Source of the DNA: Mycobacterium sp. BK086
GTDB lineage: Bacteria; Actinomycetota; Actinomycetes; Mycobacteriales; Mycobacteriaceae
Reading direction: 5' to 3'
NCBI GenBank assembly: GCA_004362315.1
Contig: SNWL01000008.1
Span: 310,001 to 374,000, forward strand
Length of the DNA stretch: 64,000 nt
Shown here: in pieces, positions 3,614 through 25,820 of the stretch
How positions within the stretch are numbered: the stretch's first letter is position 1
Layout of the letters: each line of letters begins with the position of its first letter
Translations under genes and position numbers: made by a program
Notes under the pieces: model-generated
The model's input: only the letters and a program-made list of their open reading frames with translations
Databases searched by the model: none
What the model was told of the DNA's origin: nothing

Positions 3614-4411
3614 ATGTACCCCCGGTTCGATGAAGTGATGAAGCTGATCCCGGTTGACGAGGGCTTCGAGGCAAACCTCAACGAGCACTGGACAATTGGC
3701 CCGAAGATCCACGGCGGCGTGATGCTGGCGTTGTGCGCCAAGGCCGCTCGCGACGCGTATGGCAATGCGGATTTCCAGCCGGTCGCGGTGTCGGCCGACT
3801 TTCTGTCCGCTCCCGATCCCGGGGCGGTACGGCTCGTCACGACCGTGCAGAAGCGCGGTCGCCGCATCGGTCTGGTGGATGTGGCACTCGCCCAGGGCGA
3901 GCGCACCTGCGTGCGCGCGGTGGTCACCCTCGGCGATCCCGAGCACCATGTCGAGCCCCTGCTGTCGGCCAGTCCGGTGACGGCACTGATGAGCGTGGAG
4001 CCGCCCGCGCAGATCGAGCCGATCGGACCTGGACATCCCGCGGCCGCCATCAACAACCTGGCCCGCGGCTGCGATATCCGGCCGGAGCTCACCGAGACGG
4101 TCACCGAGTCCGGCGCGCCGGTGTTCAAGATCTGGGTCCGGCCCAAGGAGGGACCGGTGGACGTTCTGTTCGCGCTCATGTGCGGCGACATCTCCGTTCC
4201 GGTCTGCTACGCCGTGAACCGGCGCGGCTGGGCGCCCACCGTGCAGATGACCGCCTACCTGAGGGGCATGCCCGACGACGGCTGGCTGCGGGTGGCCTGT
4301 ACGACCACCCAGATCGGTCAGGACTGGTTCGACGAGGACCACACCGTGGTCGACAGCGCGGGGCGCATCATCGTGCAGACGCGCCAGCTGGCCTTGGTGC
4401 CGACCGAATAG
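3614..4411 (+). CDS. Acyl-CoA thioesterase-like hotdog protein (Rv0499-like)
   Basis: 265-residue double-hotdog thioesterase-family protein. The N-terminal hotdog includes NEHWTIGPKIHGGVMLALCAKAA followed by VSADFLSAPDPGAVRL, and the second domain includes GWAPTVQMTAYLRGMPDDGWLRV, typical of TesB-like and TesB-C regions. ATG 3614 is preferred over the adjacent TTG 3611 because GAGAAGGG at 3601-3608 gives a usable ribosome binding site. It lies 15 nt after the TIM-barrel gene and 21 nt before proC. Substrate unknown. Confidence 0.78.
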   Translation: MYPRFDEVMKLIPVDEGFEANLNEHWTIGPKIHGGVMLALCAKAARDAYGNADFQPVAVSADFLSAPDPGAVRLVTTVQKRGRRIGLVDVALAQGERTCVRAVVTLGDPEHHVEPLLSASPVTALMSVEPPAQIEPIGPGHPAAAINNLARGCDIRPELTETVTESGAPVFKIWVRPKEGPVDVLFALMCGDISVPVCYAVNRRGWAPTVQMTAYLRGMPDDGWLRVACTTTQIGQDWFDEDHTVVDSAGRIIVQTRQLALVPTE

Positions 4412-18831: not shown

Positions 18832-20943
18832 ATGGCGACGACCGACCTCCAGTTGACCGGCATGAGCTGCGCGTCCTGCGCGGCCAGGATCGAACGCGGC
18901 CTCAACGACTTGGACGGTGTGCAGGCCACGGTGAACTTCGCCGTCGAGCGCGCACACGTCGAGCACGGGCCGCAGGTCTCCGAGCACGACCTCATTCACG
19001 CAGTGGAATCCACCGGCTACCACGCGTCGGTGGTGGACCACTCCGGCCCCGCCCACGACCACATGAACCACGACGTCCCCACCGAACAGTTGCGCCCCCG
19101 GCTCATCGGCTCGTCGGTGCTGGCGGTGCCGGTGGTGGCGCTCTCGATGGTGATGCCGTGGCAGTTCCCCGGCTGGCTGTGGGTGGTGCTGGCGCTGACG
19201 ACGCCGATCGTGTTCTGGGGCGGCTATCCGTTCCACAAGGCCGCGTTGAACAGCGCGCGGCACGGATCTTCGACGATGGACACCCTGGTGTCGATCGGCA
19301 CGCTGGCCGCCTACCTCTGGTCGCTGTACGCGGTGCTGACGGGGGCCGCCGAGCACGGGCATGGCCACGTGTATTTCGAGGTCGCCGCGGCGGTGACGGT
19401 GTTCCTGCTGGCCGGCCGGTACGCCGAGGCCAAAGCGAAGCGCTCGGCGGGAGCCGCCCTGCGCGCCCTGCTGTCGCTCGGCGCCAAGGACGCCACGGTG
19501 CTGCGCGACGGCGCCGAGGTGCGAATCCCGGTGAGCGAGTTGCGGGTTGGCGACGTGATCGTGGTGCGCCCCGGTGAGCGGGTGGCCACCGACGGGGTCG
19601 TGGTGGACGGCGCCTCGGCGCTGGACACCTCGGCGATGACGGGTGAGTCGGTGCCTGTCGACGTGCGCGCCGGTGCCGAGGTGCTCGGCGGTGCGGTGAA
19701 CACCTATGGGCGAATCCTGGTACGTGCCAGCCGGGTTGGCGCCGATACCCAACTGGCGCGAATGGCTCGGATGGTCACCGACGCACAGAGCGGCAAGGCT
19801 TCGATCCAGCGGCTGGCCGATCGGGTGTCCGGCGTCTTCGTCCCGGTGGTGCTGGCCATCGCCGTGATCACCTTGGCTGCTTGGCTTCTCGCGGGTGGGC
19901 CGGTCACGGCGGCATTCACCGCCGCGGTGGCGGTGTTGATCATTGCCTGCCCGTGTGCGCTCGGCCTGGCGACGCCCACCGCGATTCTGGTCGGCACCGG
20001 TCGCGGCGCGCAGCTCGGCGTGTTGATCAAGGAGCCGCAGGTGCTCGAGACCGTCACCGGTATCGATGCCGTCGTGCTGGACAAGACCGGCACCGTCACC
20101 ACCGGCACGATGACGGTCGCGGCCGTCGAAACCGACCCCGGCGCCGACAGCGACGTCGTGTTGGCCTGGGCCGCGGCTGTCGAGTCGGCCTCCGAGCACC
20201 CGGTGGCCGCCGCGATCGTGGCCGCCGCCCGCGAGCGCGGCCTGAACGTGCCCGCCGTCAGCGACTTCGCCAACGACCCCGGCACCGGGGTCAGCGGGGT
20301 TGTCGACGGGGTGACGGTCCGGGTGGCCCGCGCCTCGGATGACGACGGCCGCACCAGCGTGGCCGTGACCTGGGACGGTGCCCAGCGCGGGGTCATCCGG
20401 CTGGTCGACGCCGTCAAACCGACCAGCGCTGAGGCGATCGCCGAACTGAAGACCATGGGCATCACCCCGATCCTGCTGACTGGTGACAATCCGGCCGTCG
20501 CGGCGCAGGTGGCTACCGAGGTGGGCATCGCGCCCGAGAACGTCATCGCCGGTGTGCTGCCGTCGGAGAAGGCCGAGGCGATCACGCGCCTGCAGGCACA
20601 GGGCCGCAAGGTCGCGATGGTCGGCGACGGGGTCAACGACTCCGTGGCGCTGGCCACCGCCGACGTCGGCATGGCGATGGGCACCGGCACCGACGCCGCG
20701 ATCGAGGCCGGCGACATCACGCTGGTCCGCGGTGACCTGCGGACGGTTCCGACCGCGCTACGGCTGTCGTCGCGCACGCTGCGGATCATCAAGCAGAACC
20801 TGTTCTGGGCGTTCGGCTACAACGTGGCGGCCATTCCGCTGGCAGCGCTGGGCTTGTTGAACCCGATGATCGCCGGCGCCGCGATGGCGTTCTCCTCGGT
20901 CCTGGTGGTGACGAACAGCCTGCGCCTCAAGCGCTTCAAGTGA
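18832..20943 (+). CDS. Copper-type P1B ATPase (CopA/CtpV-like)
   Basis: 703-residue heavy-metal-translocating P-type ATPase. The N-terminal HMA domain has GMSCASCAARIE (C13, C16). A His-rich linker HSGPAHDHMNHD and a periplasmic loop EHGHGH follow. The TGES actuator motif, membrane CPC (IIACPCALGLATP), phosphorylation DKTGTVTTG, SEHP and MVGDGVNDS motifs are present. CPC plus CxxC and the CsoR-type operator upstream indicate Cu(I) export. The hinge reads GDGVNDSVAL rather than the common GDGINDAPAL. The gene stands alone between the GPP34 pair and DUF2236. Confidence 0.93.
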   Translation: MATTDLQLTGMSCASCAARIERGLNDLDGVQATVNFAVERAHVEHGPQVSEHDLIHAVESTGYHASVVDHSGPAHDHMNHDVPTEQLRPRLIGSSVLAVPVVALSMVMPWQFPGWLWVVLALTTPIVFWGGYPFHKAALNSARHGSSTMDTLVSIGTLAAYLWSLYAVLTGAAEHGHGHVYFEVAAAVTVFLLAGRYAEAKAKRSAGAALRALLSLGAKDATVLRDGAEVRIPVSELRVGDVIVVRPGERVATDGVVVDGASALDTSAMTGESVPVDVRAGAEVLGGAVNTYGRILVRASRVGADTQLARMARMVTDAQSGKASIQRLADRVSGVFVPVVLAIAVITLAAWLLAGGPVTAAFTAAVAVLIIACPCALGLATPTAILVGTGRGAQLGVLIKEPQVLETVTGIDAVVLDKTGTVTTGTMTVAAVETDPGADSDVVLAWAAAVESASEHPVAAAIVAAARERGLNVPAVSDFANDPGTGVSGVVDGVTVRVARASDDDGRTSVAVTWDGAQRGVIRLVDAVKPTSAEAIAELKTMGITPILLTGDNPAVAAQVATEVGIAPENVIAGVLPSEKAEAITRLQAQGRKVAMVGDGVNDSVALATADVGMAMGTGTDAAIEAGDITLVRGDLRTVPTALRLSSRTLRIIKQNLFWAFGYNVAAIPLAALGLLNPMIAGAAMAFSSVLVVTNSLRLKRFK

Positions 20944-20961
20944 CGCTGGTCACGAACCCGT

Positions 20962-20987
20962 TGGTACAAAGTGCGAAATCTGTAACA
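20962..20987. promoter_or_regulatory. Imperfect inverted repeat upstream of the DUF2236-TetR operon
   Basis: TGGTACA (20962-20968) and TGTAACA (20981-20987) form an imperfect inverted repeat (6 of 7 pairs) with a 12-nt spacer, ending 8 nt before the DUF2236 start. Because the TetR gene is the second gene of this operon, the repeat is a plausible autoregulatory operator. This is inferred from position only. Confidence 0.35.
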
Positions 20988-20995
20988 CTGTCCCA

Positions 20996-21859
20996 ATGAC
21001 CGACCTCGCCGAGCCTCAGTCCGCGACCGACGCCCTGCCGCTGGGCCCGCGGTCACTGGTGTGGCGCTACTTCGGCGACAACCGGATGTTCCTCATCGGG
21101 CCCCGTCCGGCGGTGCTGCAGAACATGCTGGCCGAGCTGGGTCAGGGCGTCCTGGACCATTCGGTGTTCTTCGCCGACACCGCGGCGCGGGTCAAGCGTT
21201 CACTGCCGCCGATCTTCATGACCGTCTACGGCGCCGACGACGACAATGCCGGCGCCAGCGTCCGCGACTTCCACCACAACATCAAGGGCGATATGCCCGA
21301 CGGCAAGCGCTATCACGCGCTGGATCCCGACACCTACTTCTGGGCGCACGCCACCTTCTTCGACCAGGCGCTCTACTTCGCGGACACCTTCGTCAAACGG
21401 CTCTCGCGCGAGGAGAAGGAGCAGATGTACCTGGAGTCCAAGACGTGGTACCGCCGCTACGGCGTCAGCGATCGCCCGATGCCCGCCGACTACGCGGAGT
21501 TCGAGCGCTACTGGGATCGCATGATCGACGAGGTGCTGGTCGCCCACTCCACCGCCAAGTACGGCGTCGGCTACGTCACCAAGGGATTCCCGAAGCCCAA
21601 GGGCGTCAGCCCGTTGGCGTGGCGGCTGGTGTCGCCGGTGTTCAACCCTGTCGCGGCGTTCCTGACCACCGGCGGGATGCCACCGCGCACCCGCGAGCTG
21701 CTCGGCCTGCCCTGGAGCGAGCGCAAGGAACGCAACTATCAGCGCTTCGCGGCGCTGTGGCGCTCGCGTCCGGTCAACTGGCTGTGGGATCATCTCCCGA
21801 TGGACGTGCGCTACAACCGATACGCCGCAAAGGGTTTCGCGCAGGCAGGGCATGCCTGA
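20996..21859 (+). CDS. DUF2236 (oxygenase MpaB-family) protein
   Basis: 287-residue DUF2236/ER-bound oxygenase mpaB-like protein. It contains [60 protein letters not shown] and a C-terminal helical part with [12 protein letters not shown]. Some family members (latex-clearing protein Lcp) are haem b oxygenases; His residues in FHHN and WAHATF are candidate ligands or catalytic residues. The stop overlaps the TetR start by 8 nt, a pairing I recall as common in mycobacteria. Substrate unknown. Confidence 0.85.
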
Positions 21860-22439
21860 CCAGGCGACCGAAGCGATCCTCGACGCCGCGCTCGTCGAGT
21901 TCGACCAGCATGGCATCCGCCGGGTCGCCCTCGATGACGTCGCCCGCCGGGCCGGGGTGAGCCGCACGACGATCTATCGCCGCTTCGCCAACAAGGACGA
22001 TCTGGTGTCCGCCGTGGTGGACCGCGAGAACGTGCAGCTGTTCGCCGATATCGCCGAAGAGCTCAAAAGCAAACGGCCGCAATCCAACTACTATGTCGAG
22101 GCATTCACTCAGGCGCTCCTGCGTGGCCGCAAGCACCGAGTGCTCAACCGGATGGTGCACGACGAACCGGCCTTGACACTCGAGCTGGCCCGCAGGCATT
22201 ACGCGGCGGCGGTGCAGCGCATCGAGGTCGCCTTGCACGTGATCTTCCCGCCCGGCTTCGCCGACCGGATCGGCCCGGAAGCCGTGCATGAACTGGCCGA
22301 CAACATCTGGCGGTACACGATCATGGCGGCGCTACTGCCCGGACCGGATCCGATCGAAACCGTGGACGATATAAGAGCTTTCGCCACCAAGCATTTCCTG
22401 CCCAGCCTGCCCGAGGCGCTGCGCGCGGTTCCGGTCTAG
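21852..22439 (+). CDS. TetR-family transcriptional regulator
   Basis: 195-residue regulator with an N-terminal TetR HTH ([44 protein letters not shown]) and a ligand-binding C-terminal domain. It overlaps the DUF2236 gene, so it probably controls that gene and itself, possibly via the repeat at 20962-20987. Its TAG stop shares a CTAG tetranucleotide (22436-22439) with the stop of the convergent small gene. Confidence 0.88.
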
Positions 22440-22657
22440 TTGCCGGCGGGGCAGTCCAGGTCGACATAGGCGGTTGGTGACGATCGGTGCACGTCTGTGA
22501 CCGTGCACTGAGTCAGATCTCCGTTCGGTGAGCCGTTGAACTGCACCGTGAAGCCTTGACTCTGTAGTTCGCTGACGATGTCGGTCGTCGACCCGCTCCC
22601 CGAGGAAACGATATGGGCGACGCTGATGAGTGCTGCTCCAATGATGTTGCTGTACAT
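22436..22657 (-). CDS. Small exported mycobacterial protein (two Cys)
   Basis: 73-residue protein with an N-terminal hydrophobic segment ([16 protein letters not shown]) resembling an uncleaved signal or anchor. A small domain follows: [18 protein letters not shown], then [11 protein letters not shown] and [12 protein letters not shown]. The two Cys could form a disulfide outside the cell. It belongs to a family of short mycobacterial exported proteins of unknown function. The region 22664-22684 just upstream is nearly identical to the sigma-gene promoter, which suggests membership of the ECF regulon. Confidence 0.72.
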
Positions 22658-22663
22658 GCCTTT

Positions 22664-22684
22664 AGATAGGCGGGGAGGTTACAC
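22664..22684 (-). promoter_or_regulatory. Shared ECF-locus promoter element, copy 1
   Basis: On the minus strand this reads GTGTAACC, then TCCCCG, then CCTATCT, ending 6 nt before the small gene ATG. It matches the element at 23963-23983 at 19 of 21 positions. The TATCT part is placed where a -10 element of a leaderless transcript would be. Whether GTGTAACC is a sigma -35 or a repressor half-site is not decided by sequence. Confidence 0.6.
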
Positions 22685-22693
22685 GACCGTTCG

Positions 22694-23398
22694 CTAAGTC
22701 GTTTGCGTCGGGGGAGCCAGGACTTCCACCACGCCGTTTTGCTCACGGACCTCGAAGTGGGGCAACGGCTTCGGGGCGATCGGCAGGGCATGGGTGACGA
22801 CCATCCCGGTCGGCGAGAACGACGTCGAGTGGCACGGGCAGCGCAGCCGGTCGACGGTCTGGTCGAACCACAGCTTGCAGCCCTGGTGGGTGCACACGCC
22901 CGACACCGCCTGCACCGTGCCGTTCACCCGGCCGACGAAACCACTGACCGAACCCAGGTCGAAGGCGTGCATTCCGCCCTCGGACACCTGCGCGCTGGAC
23001 GCCACGGTCTGCCAGGATCCGTCGAGGGGCACCATATGGGGGTCGGCGACCGGGGGTTCGCCGGTTGTGGGGCGCAGCACCAGCCGGTCGACGGATACCG
23101 CCGCCACCGCCGCCGTTGCGGCGGCGGTGGTGCCGACGATCACCTGCCTGCGGGTGGCCGACGGCGCCGCCTTGGGCGGCACTGCGACGGGTGCCGGCTC
23201 TGACGACATCTCGCCGGCCAATCGCGCCCTGAGCCCGGCCACGAATTCCGGTCGGGGCTCGCTCGCGTCGTCGCGAGCGGCGGTCAGGTCGATGGCGGTG
23301 CGCAGCTGTGCGGCCTCGAAGTCGTCCGGGCTGAAGCTCTTCGGCTGGCGCCCGGCCAGCATGTCGTCGATGTAGCGACGCAGTTCACGGCGGGTCAT
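22694..23398 (-). CDS. Membrane-anchored Rieske [2Fe-2S] protein, candidate anti-sigma factor
   Basis: 234-residue protein. Residues 1-80 are hydrophilic and predicted cytoplasmic; a single helix follows a twin-Arg (TRRQVIVGTTAAATAAVAAVSV, about 82-103); the outer part is a Rieske domain with CTHQGC (C169, H171, C174) and CPCH (C187, C189, H190). These supply the two Cys and two His cluster ligands plus a disulfide pair as in bc1-type Rieske proteins. It starts within the sigma-factor stop (4-nt overlap). Cytoplasmic N-terminus plus external sensor domain is the topology of an anti-sigma factor, but there is no zinc-type HxxxCxxC motif, so that role is inferred. Confidence 0.85.
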   Translation of the reverse strand: MTRRELRRYIDDMLAGRQPKSFSPDDFEAAQLRTAIDLTAARDDASEPRPEFVAGLRARLAGEMSSEPAPVAVPPKAAPSATRRQVIVGTTAAATAAVAAVSVDRLVLRPTTGEPPVADPHMVPLDGSWQTVASSAQVSEGGMHAFDLGSVSGFVGRVNGTVQAVSGVCTHQGCKLWFDQTVDRLRCPCHSTSFSPTGMVVTHALPIAPKPLPHFEVREQNGVVEVLAPPTQTT

Positions 23399-23955
23399 GG
23401 ATGTGCCCCCTCGCTGATCTGCGCGGCCAGTCGCAGCGCCCGGTGTTGCAGCACTTTGGCATTCGCGACGCTGATGCCGAGGGTACTGGCCGCCTCGCGC
23501 ACCGAACAGCCTTGAAGGAAGCGGAGTTCGAGCACGCGTCGGTAGTTGTCGGGAAGAGCCTCCAGCAGTGCGGCGACGCGTTGGGGTGCGGTGCTCGGGG
23601 CCGCCGGACCGAAGACGGTGGCGGGCAGGTCCTCGATGGTGGTGATCTCAGTCCCCAGGGTGGCCCGCCAGTGCGCGGCCAGCACAGTGCGCGCGGTGGC
23701 CCGCAGGTAGGCCCGCACCTCGGGGATGCTGGCCGTCAGGCGCAGTGGCCGCATGGCGGCCAGGAAGACCTCCGAGGTCAGGTCTTCGGCGTCGGCTCGA
23801 TTTCCGACCCGGCCGAAGATCATCCGGTACACCCACGTCACGTTGTCGTCGTAGACGGCTTCCCAATCCGGATAGTGCGCATCGGGGACCAGACGCAGGT
23901 CTGGTCGCGGGCGCCGATCGTCGTCCGCCGCCATCGTCGTTTGCCTTCCGCTCAT
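23395..23955 (-). CDS. ECF-type RNA polymerase sigma factor
   Basis: 186-residue sigma-70 family ECF factor from ATG 23955. Region 2 is about residues 35-95 (YDDNVTWVYRMIFGRVGNRADAEDLTSEVFLAA) and region 4 about 130-178 (LPDNYRRVLELRFLQGCSVREAASTLGISVANAKVLQHRAL). It is translationally coupled to the Rieske protein. The start is placed so the shared promoter element ends 7 nt upstream, consistent with a leaderless transcript. An ATG at 23934 is an alternative. Probably directs itself, the small gene at 22436 and perhaps the cupredoxin operon. Confidence 0.9.
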   Translation of the reverse strand: MSGRQTTMAADDDRRPRPDLRLVPDAHYPDWEAVYDDNVTWVYRMIFGRVGNRADAEDLTSEVFLAAMRPLRLTASIPEVRAYLRATARTVLAAHWRATLGTEITTIEDLPATVFGPAAPSTAPQRVAALLEALPDNYRRVLELRFLQGCSVREAASTLGISVANAKVLQHRALRLAAQISEGAHP

Positions 23956-23962
23956 CACCCAG

Positions 23963-24000
23963 AGATAGGCGGCGGGGTTACACAGCCGTCCGTGTAACCC
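23963..24000. promoter_or_regulatory. Bidirectional ECF-locus control region with 9-bp inverted repeat
   Basis: GGGTTACAC (23975-23983) and GTGTAACCC (23992-24000) form a perfect 9-bp inverted repeat with an 8-nt spacer. On the minus strand the inner arm continues into CCTATCT seven nt before the sigma start. On the plus strand the other arm continues into CTACCTC toward the cupredoxin gene, 64 nt away. The site therefore faces both divergent operons and shares its core with 22664-22684. Confidence 0.6.
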
Positions 24001-24064
24001 GCGCCCTACCTCTTGATGAGACGGTCCGCGCCGCGGACATGGTTCAGCCGAGGAGGCAGATTTC

Positions 24065-24520
24065 ATGCACTACTCCCGTACCGCGCTCGCCTGCGTCGCG
24101 GTCGCAGTTGGCGTCGCCGGGTGCTCAGCCCCGGCGAAAGCGCCCACACCGACGGTCGATTTCGGCTCCAACGGCGGCACATCGGTCGGCATGCCCGGGA
24201 TGTCGGGCATGCCCGCCATGGGGCCGATGTCGTCGGCCTCGACGTCGACGCCACCGGCCGCGCCGGTCGCCGGCACCGCGGTGAACATCACCAACTTCGC
24301 GTTCGCCCCGGCCAACCTGACCGTCAAGGTCGGCGACACCGTCACGTGGACCAACAAGGACGAGGAGCCCCACAACGTGGTCGCCAACGACGGAGCGTTC
24401 CGATCGCCTGGGATGGACGCCAACGCCACGTTCACCTACACCTTCACCAAGGCGGGCAGCTTCGACTACATCTGTGGCATCCACCCGTTCATGCACGGCA
24501 CCGTGGTGGTGACCGCGTGA
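24065..24520 (+). CDS. Cupredoxin (plastocyanin-like) lipoprotein with Met-rich linker
   Basis: 151-residue exported lipoprotein. It has a signal peptide with lipobox VAGC (C20), then a Met-rich linker (VGMPGMSGMPAMGPM, about residues 41-55). The cupredoxin domain has type-1 copper ligands H103 (EEPHNVV), C137, H140 and M143 (YICGIHPFMHG). GAGGAGGC lies upstream of the ATG. The Met-rich segment could bind Cu(I). It heads an operon with a metallophosphatase and a membrane protein, divergent from the ECF/Rieske pair. Probable role: copper or electron-transfer chemistry at the outer face of the membrane. Confidence 0.9.
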   Translation: MHYSRTALACVAVAVGVAGCSAPAKAPTPTVDFGSNGGTSVGMPGMSGMPAMGPMSSASTSTPPAAPVAGTAVNITNFAFAPANLTVKVGDTVTWTNKDEEPHNVVANDGAFRSPGMDANATFTYTFTKAGSFDYICGIHPFMHGTVVVTA

Positions 24521-25440
24521 ACGGCGATCCGCAGCAGATGAGCAGGCGCCAGCTCATGCGCCACGGTGCCTGGTTCGGTGCCGCGGTGGGTCTGGCGGTC
24601 GTCGGCGGCGAGGTGCTCTCCCATGTCGCCGCCGCCCCGGCGGCCACCCCGGCCCGGCCGAGTCTGCGGTTCGCGCAGATCAGCGACAGTCACATCGGGT
24701 TCAACGGCACCGCCAACCCCGATGTGGTGGGCTCCTTCGAGCGGGCCATCAAGCAGATCAACAACCTCGGCTACACACCGGATTTCGTCATCCACACCGG
24801 TGATCTGACCCATCTGGCCACACCGGCCCAGTTCGATCAGGTCAACCAGATGATGGGCAGCCTCAACACCCCGCACGTCTTCACCGTGCCCGGCGAGCAT
24901 GACTCGGTCGACGACGCCGGGCAGAAGTACCGTTCGGTCTTCGGGGCAGGCACCCGTGGTGACGGTTGGTACAGCTTCGACATCGCCGGTGTCCACGTCA
25001 TCGGACTGGTCAACACGCTGAATCTCAAGAAGCTGGGCCATCTCGGAGCCGATCAGTTGGAGTTCGTCGAAAAGGACGTGGCGGCACTGTCGTCCGACAC
25101 CCCGATCATCGTGTTCAGCCACATCCCGCTGTTCGCGATGTACCCGGACTGGGGCTGGGGCACCGACGACGCCACCCAGGCGCTGAGCTACCTGCGCCGG
25201 TTCTCGTCGGTCACCTGCCTGAACGGCCATGTCCACCAGTTGTTTTCGAAGACCGAGGACAACGTCACGTTTTACAGCGGCACCACCACGGCCTACCCGC
25301 TGCCGCATCCTGGCGATGGCCCGGCGCCCAAGCCGCTCACCCTGCCGGCCGGCCAACTGCATGACGCGCTCGGCATCCGCGAGGTCAGCTACACCAAGGG
25401 CCAGACCATGCTGGCGCTGAAAGAGGAGACGCTGCAATGA
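24517..25440 (+). CDS. Tat-exported metallophosphoesterase
   Basis: 307-residue calcineurin-like phosphoesterase. A twin-arginine signal is visible (SRRQLMRHGAWFGAAVGLAVV). Metal motifs are FAQISDSHIG, VIHTGDLTH, VPGEHDS, VFSHIPL and LNGHVHQ. The usual GNH(D/E) appears as GEHD, so the bridging Asn is Glu. GTG 24517 overlaps the cupredoxin stop by 4 nt; ATG 24538 is an alternative start. Substrate unknown; localisation with the cupredoxin outside the cytoplasm is predicted. Confidence 0.86.
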   Translation: MNGDPQQMSRRQLMRHGAWFGAAVGLAVVGGEVLSHVAAAPAATPARPSLRFAQISDSHIGFNGTANPDVVGSFERAIKQINNLGYTPDFVIHTGDLTHLATPAQFDQVNQMMGSLNTPHVFTVPGEHDSVDDAGQKYRSVFGAGTRGDGWYSFDIAGVHVIGLVNTLNLKKLGHLGADQLEFVEKDVAALSSDTPIIVFSHIPLFAMYPDWGWGTDDATQALSYLRRFSSVTCLNGHVHQLFSKTEDNVTFYSGTTTAYPLPHPGDGPAPKPLTLPAGQLHDALGIREVSYTKGQTMLALKEETLQ

Positions 25441-25820
25441 CCCGGCTCATCAACTTCGGCATCGCGGCCGGCCTTCTGGTCAGCGCTGCCAGCCACGGCT
25501 ACCTGTTCCTGCACGGGTACCAGTACATCCCGGCGATAGGCCCCGGATTCCTGGTCCTGACAAGCGTTTCCGTCGCGCTGGCAATCCTGATCGCACTCGG
25601 CGGGCCCGGCTGGCTGCGGATGGCCGCGTTGCTGGTCTCCCTCGGCGCGCTCGGCGCCTTCGCGCTTTCGCGCACGATCGGGGTGATGGGCTTCATCGAA
25701 CGGGGTTGGGAGGCGCCGCACGGGCCGATCAGTGTGCTCGCCGAAGCCGCCACGGTCGTGCTGTGTGCGTGGTCGCTGGTCCGGCGCGGGGCACCAGTCC
25801 CCGCTGGTCAATTCGAGTAG
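25437..25820 (+). CDS. Four-helix membrane protein of the cupredoxin operon
   Basis: 127-residue protein with about four hydrophobic helices (LINFGIAAGLLVSAASHGYLFL; GFLVLTSVSVALAILIALGG; MAALLVSLGALGAFALS; ISVLAEAATVVLCAWSLV). The ATG overlaps the phosphoesterase stop by 4 nt, so it is a member of the operon. A His (SHGYLFLHGYQY) lies at the end of helix 1. I do not recognise a characterised family. Confidence 0.75.
   Translation: MTRLINFGIAAGLLVSAASHGYLFLHGYQYIPAIGPGFLVLTSVSVALAILIALGGPGWLRMAALLVSLGALGAFALSRTIGVMGFIERGWEAPHGPISVLAEAATVVLCAWSLVRRGAPVPAGQFE

Follow-up and report, generated by a model that had tools for sequence, protein, structure and literature searches.

The window considered here, a stretch of 64,000 nucleotides from Mycobacterium sp. 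BK086 (contig SNWL01000008.1, positions 310,001 to 374,000; genome size 6.93 Mb), carries on its minus strand a gene for an extracytoplasmic function (ECF) sigma factor whose stop codon overlaps by 4 nt the start of a gene for a protein with a Rieske iron-sulfur domain. With a probability of roughly two in three, the Rieske protein serves as the anti-sigma factor, anchored in the membrane and bearing an extracytoplasmic [2Fe-2S] sensor. Rieske clusters are electron carriers of respiration, photosynthesis and oxygenases and, if the reading is true, sensing by such a cluster on a membrane-anchored anti-sigma factor would add a class of input that is new to ECF systems, and the cell could gauge directly what redox or metal state its envelope is in. 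Facing the pair is an operon for a cupredoxin lipoprotein, a metallophosphoesterase (MPE) and a small membrane protein, and the whole, together with a short promoter-like element, is referred to below as the module. A preliminary description of this DNA had claimed just this gene set, with the overlapping pair facing the operon, and the open reading frames (ORFs) and their Pfam matches place every gene where it was said to be.

As envisaged, a three-helix N-terminal domain would hold the sigma factor at the cytoplasmic face, and the Rieske domain at the C-terminus would take up its fold together with the [2Fe-2S] cluster, leave by the twin-arginine (Tat) route and sit outside. A change in the cluster, be it of redox state, its loss, or a failure of its building or export, would free the sigma factor, which would then transcribe its own operon and the facing one, together with a small ORF in this clade. 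Transcription would start from GTAACC-N7-CTATCT promoters, giving autoregulation and a small regulon. A reading of this kind, in which a changed external cluster releases the sigma factor, was that of the preliminary description, and it is borne out in part: the exclusive pair, the anti-sigma-like layout, the lack of a zinc motif and the shared element speak for it. With the module widespread in mycobacteria, and its promoter-like signature sharp and present in few copies per genome, binding, signal and spacing are readily testable.

The sigma factor and its Rieske partner

The sigma gene (23395..23934, minus strand; assigned by Pfam, NCBIfam and a conserved alignment) encodes 179 amino acids with sigma regions 2 and 4 only (Pfam Sigma70_r2 at residues 28-91 and Sigma70_r4_2 at 119-168), to which an alternative in-frame start at 23955 would add 7 residues. 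The Rieske gene follows on the same strand at 22694..23398, its 234-amino-acid product being assigned by Pfam, alignment, AlphaFold2 (AF2) and Foldseek.

How constant is their association? With the Rieske protein as query (E 0.001), 149 of 201 genomes of the family, its own included, gave matches, mostly over the Rieske part, and in 13 the match was near full length. Wider stretches from the 12 others among these had the sigma factor, cupredoxin and MPE in every case and the membrane protein in 10, and there was no sigma gene at 4 further loci of family genomes where the Rieske match was partial only. A larger set comprised the best 80 of 244 confirmed relatives in named genomes (the nearest named being Mycobacterium and Mycolicibacterium records), with neighbours counted within 4 kb. 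A sigma gene lies upstream of the Rieske gene with the 4-nt overlap in all 80, and given this the arrangement is beyond chance. MPE is a neighbour at all 80 loci, with cupredoxin matched at 77 and the membrane protein at 73. Two gene orders occur: at 61 loci the output operon and the pair share a strand, and at 19, as here, they diverge.

A class-wide sample of 296 genomes, in each of which the profile searches scored the top 12 or 20 candidates, establishes that the co-occurrence is exclusive. The sigma profile was found in 21 genomes, and a profile of the N-terminal 65 residues of the Rieske protein in 20 of these, the sigma gene of the 21st sitting at a contig end; among the best candidates per genome there was no strong match to the N-terminal domain without the sigma factor in any of the 296, nor, among the 20 best per genome, any instance of the domain on another sensor protein. 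The only matches besides were weak, one in genome G124 and one in G616 that looks like chance, its ORF being, we presume, akin to a molybdenum-cofactor guanylyltransferase. Evolutionary distances of the sigma factor correlate with those of the Rieske protein at 0.87, versus 0.56 with those of MPE.

Similarly, at 14 distant loci (13 that hold one of the 14 sigma genes found beyond the family, plus locus L159, which came from a Rieske-profile match) the two genes are paired in every case despite differing neighbours, with the 4-nt overlap in 11 by a simple start rule. The constant core of the module is the sigma/Rieske pair, and the module is conserved across many mycobacteria and some more distant actinobacteria. 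At L159 (6756-8860, minus strand) the sigma gene is followed by two tandem Rieske genes, both with the N-terminal domain, and the element stands 5' of the sigma gene and of a membrane-protein gene. At L175 (5318-7784, minus strand) a twin-arginine gene, which we take to be for a vanadium haloperoxidase-like protein, precedes sigma and Rieske genes in one apparent operon, with no cupredoxin or MPE matched.

The company of a cupredoxin invites the thought that the Rieske protein is simply an electron carrier, partner to the cupredoxin in a small extracytoplasmic redox chain, its N-terminal domain being otherwise employed. The cupredoxin is amicyanin-like with type 1 copper ligands in 77 of 77 relatives, and the cluster ligands are complete in all 13 Rieske proteins reached through the sigma factor, as would suit a chain of this type; but the overlap with the sigma gene persists in 80 of 80 loci, including those where the output operon is divergent (19) or the cupredoxin unmatched (3), and among the best candidates per genome the N-terminal domain has no strong match apart from the sigma factor in 296 genomes. 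We regard a carrier role alone as quite improbable.

Layout of the Rieske protein and possible kin of its N-terminal domain

The order of parts in the Rieske protein is a three-helix domain (residues 1-65), a variable linker, twin arginines (83-84), a hydrophobic segment (86-104) and the [2Fe-2S] domain (about 125-230). The last has a Pfam Rieske match of 6e-14 and a complete set of cluster ligands (CTHQGC and CPCH); AF2 models it with a predicted local distance difference test score (pLDDT) mostly above 90, and the model matches solved Rieske structures in Foldseek (best E 1.3e-08), so that fold and ligands together make it a putative [2Fe-2S] domain. The 80 loci had been found with Rieske ligand peptides, which renders ligand completeness among them circular, and it was dropped as evidence. 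The 13 proteins reached via the sigma factor alone provide the independent count, all having both CxHxGC and CxCH, as also do both L159 proteins, which were found by the Rieske profile. The segment that follows TRRQ, VIVGTTAAATAAVAAVSVD, is Ala-rich and weakly hydrophobic (highest 19-residue mean hydropathy 1.65), and twin arginines precede such a segment in 81 of 81 aligned proteins, a pattern similar to that described for Tat-dependent actinobacterial Rieske proteins (PMC5449189).

Two more familiar identities were rejected. Residues 1-80 have neither Cys nor His and therefore no HxxxCxxC; among 81 aligned N-terminal domains neither the motif nor any Cys occurs, and the protein is not a zinc anti-sigma (ZAS) factor, the absence of that motif having been rightly called at the outset. 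Nor does it look like the bc1 subunit QcrA, the case that the preliminary description had named against itself: the score to NCBIfam bc1_QcrA_actin is 26.8 bits versus a cut-off of 275, and the genome has a separate QcrA scoring 385.6 bits. The genome's other Rieske match, presumably a Rieske oxygenase, bears no relation to the module. QcrA of actinobacteria is also a twin-arginine Rieske protein, but three helices precede its Rieske domain (PMC5449189).

Modelled alone by AF2, the N-terminal domain has three predicted helices (3-14, 24-41 and 50-65; mean pLDDT 78, predicted template modelling score 0.37), which are less sure in the whole protein. It weakly resembles parts of two proteins that partner ECF sigma factors, one of them the anti-SigD factor RsdA, a likeness that is suggestive. 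A profile of the domain built from 17 diverse members scored 21.3 over 25 columns against a profile of RsdA homologues, a value that 0 of 200 column-shuffled controls attained. Of 55 proteins compared as a panel (10 ECF neighbours picked from 24 scanned loci, the rest being 45 other ORFs of the window), the two that scored highest were ECF neighbours, the protein of locus L225 at 20.3 and RsdA at 17.9, with the best background at 14.5. RsdA aligns to helix 1 and the first part of helix 2 (residues 7-32), the L225 protein to helix 3 (residues 46-64). The mycobacterial SigD/RsdA system (3vep) has, like the present one, an ECF sigma factor followed by a protein that begins with a short helical domain and has Arg-rich and Ala/Gly-rich sequence, with weakly similar N-terminal profiles; unlike it, the present protein has a predicted external Rieske cluster domain, which RsdA homologues lack.

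At L225 (neighbourhood of G000:C5:36449) another ECF sigma gene overlaps a gene whose protein carries at its start PDPAFAARLRARL, like helix 3 of the Rieske protein; its later part looks, we assume, glyoxalase-like, and it is a candidate soluble anti-sigma factor. Among ECF neighbours at the 24 loci of this genome the helix-3 motif is clear at L225 and loose at L234, and is insufficient alone.

Several observations pull in the opposite direction from an anti-sigma role or from the topology that goes with it. No known anti-sigma domain was recognised in the N-terminal part by sequence (Pfam, NCBIfam, PDB) or by fold (Foldseek). RsdA having first been picked by eye, its likeness is suggestive at most; it is weak, covering 25-26 columns with hhalign probabilities of 10-22% for the domain alone and 43%, a figure with no control, when the following segment is included. 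A 102-member profile scored 21.5 against RsdA, with 1 of 200 shuffled controls higher, and in the panel the other 8 ECF neighbours out of 10 fell within the background. The distance correlation does not discriminate the N-terminal domain, as N-terminal and Rieske parts each correlate at 0.87 with the sigma factor. The NCBIfam TAT_signal_seq score is 13.7 bits, under the cut-off of 16.7, and AF2 shows no membrane helix, the pLDDT of residues 66-121 being below 50. The order of domains, the twin arginines and one weakly hydrophobic segment would suit the anti-sigma topology claimed in the preliminary description, and the single membrane helix is less certain.

Tat export bears on the nature of the signal. 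The sensor might respond not to an external change but to its own assembly: the Rieske domain has to acquire its cluster in the cytoplasm ahead of Tat export, and if iron-sulfur assembly or Tat export failed (through iron lack, oxidants or copper), immature Rieske protein would be retained or degraded and the sigma factor freed. Many transmembrane anti-sigma factors are read from outside, and export is itself only predicted, from a Tat model score below cut-off; for the proposal there is the resemblance of the twin arginines and weakly hydrophobic segment, in 81 of 81 proteins, to Tat-dependent Rieske substrates, and the twin-arginine start of MPE as well. On balance assembly as the signal is unlikely. 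A further thought is that, instead of inhibiting the sigma factor, the Rieske protein assists it as a positive partner or tethers it to the membrane. RskA, the partner of SigK, is given a dual function as activator and inhibitor in the title of PMC7509140, and no sequence feature of the present protein favours activation; such a role strikes us as very improbable, and it is as a putative inhibitor that the Rieske protein is treated in what follows.

Iron-sulfur clusters and copper have both been met before in control of sigma factors. RsmA of Streptomyces coelicolor, anti to SigM, is an anti-sigma factor with a [2Fe-2S] cluster (PMC3427169, PMC8346170), as is predicted here, but it is of the HATPase_C type, acts on a SigB homologue and has the motif HX3CX2S, in contrast to the Rieske domain here, with its predicted outer location. 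RshA, which acts on SigH, is an ECF anti-sigma factor reported with [2Fe-2S] in place of zinc (PMC3427169); its cluster is on cysteines of the ZAS-type protein itself, whereas the N-terminal domain here has no Cys. The group ECF58 has a conserved iron-sulfur neighbour as possible regulator (PMC8999054), set apart by its description as DUF3470 and not a Rieske membrane protein. Control by CorE and SigC is, as it may possibly be here, tied to copper, but operates through the sigma factor's own extension or, as proposed, its conformation (PMC8999054). Literature searches on Rieske with anti-sigma, ECF sigma or cupredoxin gave no such system among the matches listed, a search outside which lay the ECF reclassification (doi 10.1093/nar/gkaa1229), which may already contain a group that has Rieske neighbours. 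Passages from PMC5445863 and PMC5015018 contain no such system, and those of the review of non-canonical ECF systems (PMC8999054), PMC7406223 and PMC8103513 do not name Rieske.

The GTAACC element and the reach of the predicted regulon

A shared element is established for the module. GTAACC-N7-CTATCT stands 5' of the sigma gene (23963..23981, minus strand), the same again 5' of a small ORF (22664..22682, minus strand), and GTAACC-N6-CTACCT, its spacer one base shorter, 5' of the cupredoxin operon (23994..24011, plus strand), with the GTAACC halves of the sigma and cupredoxin copies forming an inverted repeat. The small ORF, of 73 codons (22436..22657, minus strand), starts 6 nt past its CTATCT and is counted into the module because the same upstream element precedes it. 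The exact element, searched as TGTAAC-N8-STAYCT, occurs twice in the 6.93 Mb, both copies inside the module. GTAACC-N7-CTAYCT has 26 matches in 13 module genomes, 18 of them inside the module, and 5 in 12 chosen module-less genomes; the reversed pattern, as control, has 3 and 4 respectively.

Across the 80 loci the strict pattern precedes the cupredoxin/MPE operon in 68 and the sigma gene in 35, versus 6 matches in 1.2 Mb of outer flanks. Under a relaxed rule a GTAAC box is present on the sigma side in 79 (39 with at least 4 of the 6 CTATCT letters at a fixed distance, 40 with a GATATT-like variant) and on the output side likewise in 79 (69 at the fixed distance, 10 one base shorter). Shuffled windows yielded the box alone in a mean of 12 (sigma) and 15 (output) of 80, with maxima of 22 and 23; the box together with 4 of 6 letters came up in a mean below 1, with maxima of 2 and 4. 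The element is in 10 of the 14 distant loci and was not found in L175, L180, L181 and L182. Since it is common to the sigma, cupredoxin/MPE and small-ORF genes, the sigma factor probably drives the facing operon, as the preliminary description had it, the basis being a predicted promoter.

Where then would transcription start? At 46 of 58 same-strand loci there is an in-frame start codon at element bases 20-32, mostly ATG at base 25, often followed by a lipoprotein-like signal, and in six (L069, L073, L077, L089, L091 and L115) this codon is the sole in-frame ATG, GTG or TTG found. With start codons so close behind CTATCT, the mRNA in those loci is probably leaderless and CTATCT the -10. Divergent loci have an element-proximal in-frame start in 4 of 19 only, and the leaderless pattern is therefore not general. 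ECF -35 boxes typically have such an AAC core, and a -35 box is normally some 16-18 bp from the -10. A conventional reading, in which GTAACC is the -35 and the -10 follows at N16-17, was set aside in view of the start codons at bases 20-32 in the same 46 of 58 loci.

A gap of 8 bp separates GTAACC from TATCT, which with CTATCT as the -10 would place GTAACC at about -25 to -20; this is not normal ECF promoter spacing, a further item on the debit side. The close spacing (6-7 bases in the window copies) recurs in several families. On this placement GTAACC would be closer to the -10 than a usual -35 by roughly one turn of the helix, and either the promoter is unusual or another factor binds GTAACC. 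That a regulator other than the sigma factor should do so is rather unlikely in our estimation: the 8-bp gap is what commends it, but at 10 of the 14 distant loci the element accompanies the sigma/Rieske pair, also beside other neighbours (L159), and, with not every neighbour checked, no other recognised DNA-binding family was seen travelling with the module (TetR is at 10 of 80). Returning to the sigma factor as reader of the element, the fullest form of the reading has the external cluster gating it by redox or assembly, the induced cupredoxin resetting the sensor as its electron partner, and the sigma factor reading a promoter with a shifted AAC box; we know of no ECF promoter with an AAC box this close to the -10, and the combination as a whole is doubtful.

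Copies of the element occur beyond the module. In L162 and L163 (about base 4000, minus strand), and probably L165, one lies just 5' of a gene, presumably for a PPE protein (perhaps also in L165), which is a possible further member of the regulon. An identical copy in L160 and L161, of the same genus and again at about base 4000, is 5' of a large ORF that we take to resemble a serine/threonine protein kinase.

Output operon and neighbouring genes

The operon facing the pair is on the plus strand throughout. Its first gene (24065..24520) encodes the amicyanin-like cupredoxin lipoprotein (Pfam Copper-bind), with complete type 1 copper ligands, and the conservation of that pattern in its 77 relatives makes a role for copper possible. 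The second (24517..25440) encodes a twin-arginine calcineurin-like MPE (Pfam Metallophos), in which MSRRQLM begins at residue 8; it is distantly similar to the phosphohydrolase structures 2dxl and 2zo9, and metal motifs are present in 77 of 80. The third (25437..25820), for a small protein judged by hydropathy to be a membrane protein and matching no Pfam family, is kept in 73 of the 80 loci. MPE is the most constant output there (80 versus 77 for cupredoxin), and the reverse holds at the 14 distant loci (cupredoxin 10, MPE 8), where contig ends cut some stretches.

The small ORF has a match near the Rieske gene (within 4 kb) in 17 of the 80 loci. On its far side, at 18832-22439 on the plus strand, genes for a copper P-type ATPase, an MPAB/Lcp-type protein and a TetR protein lie next to the module, at 10-11 of 80 loci and only in this clade, the copper ATPase being present in 11 and TetR in 10.

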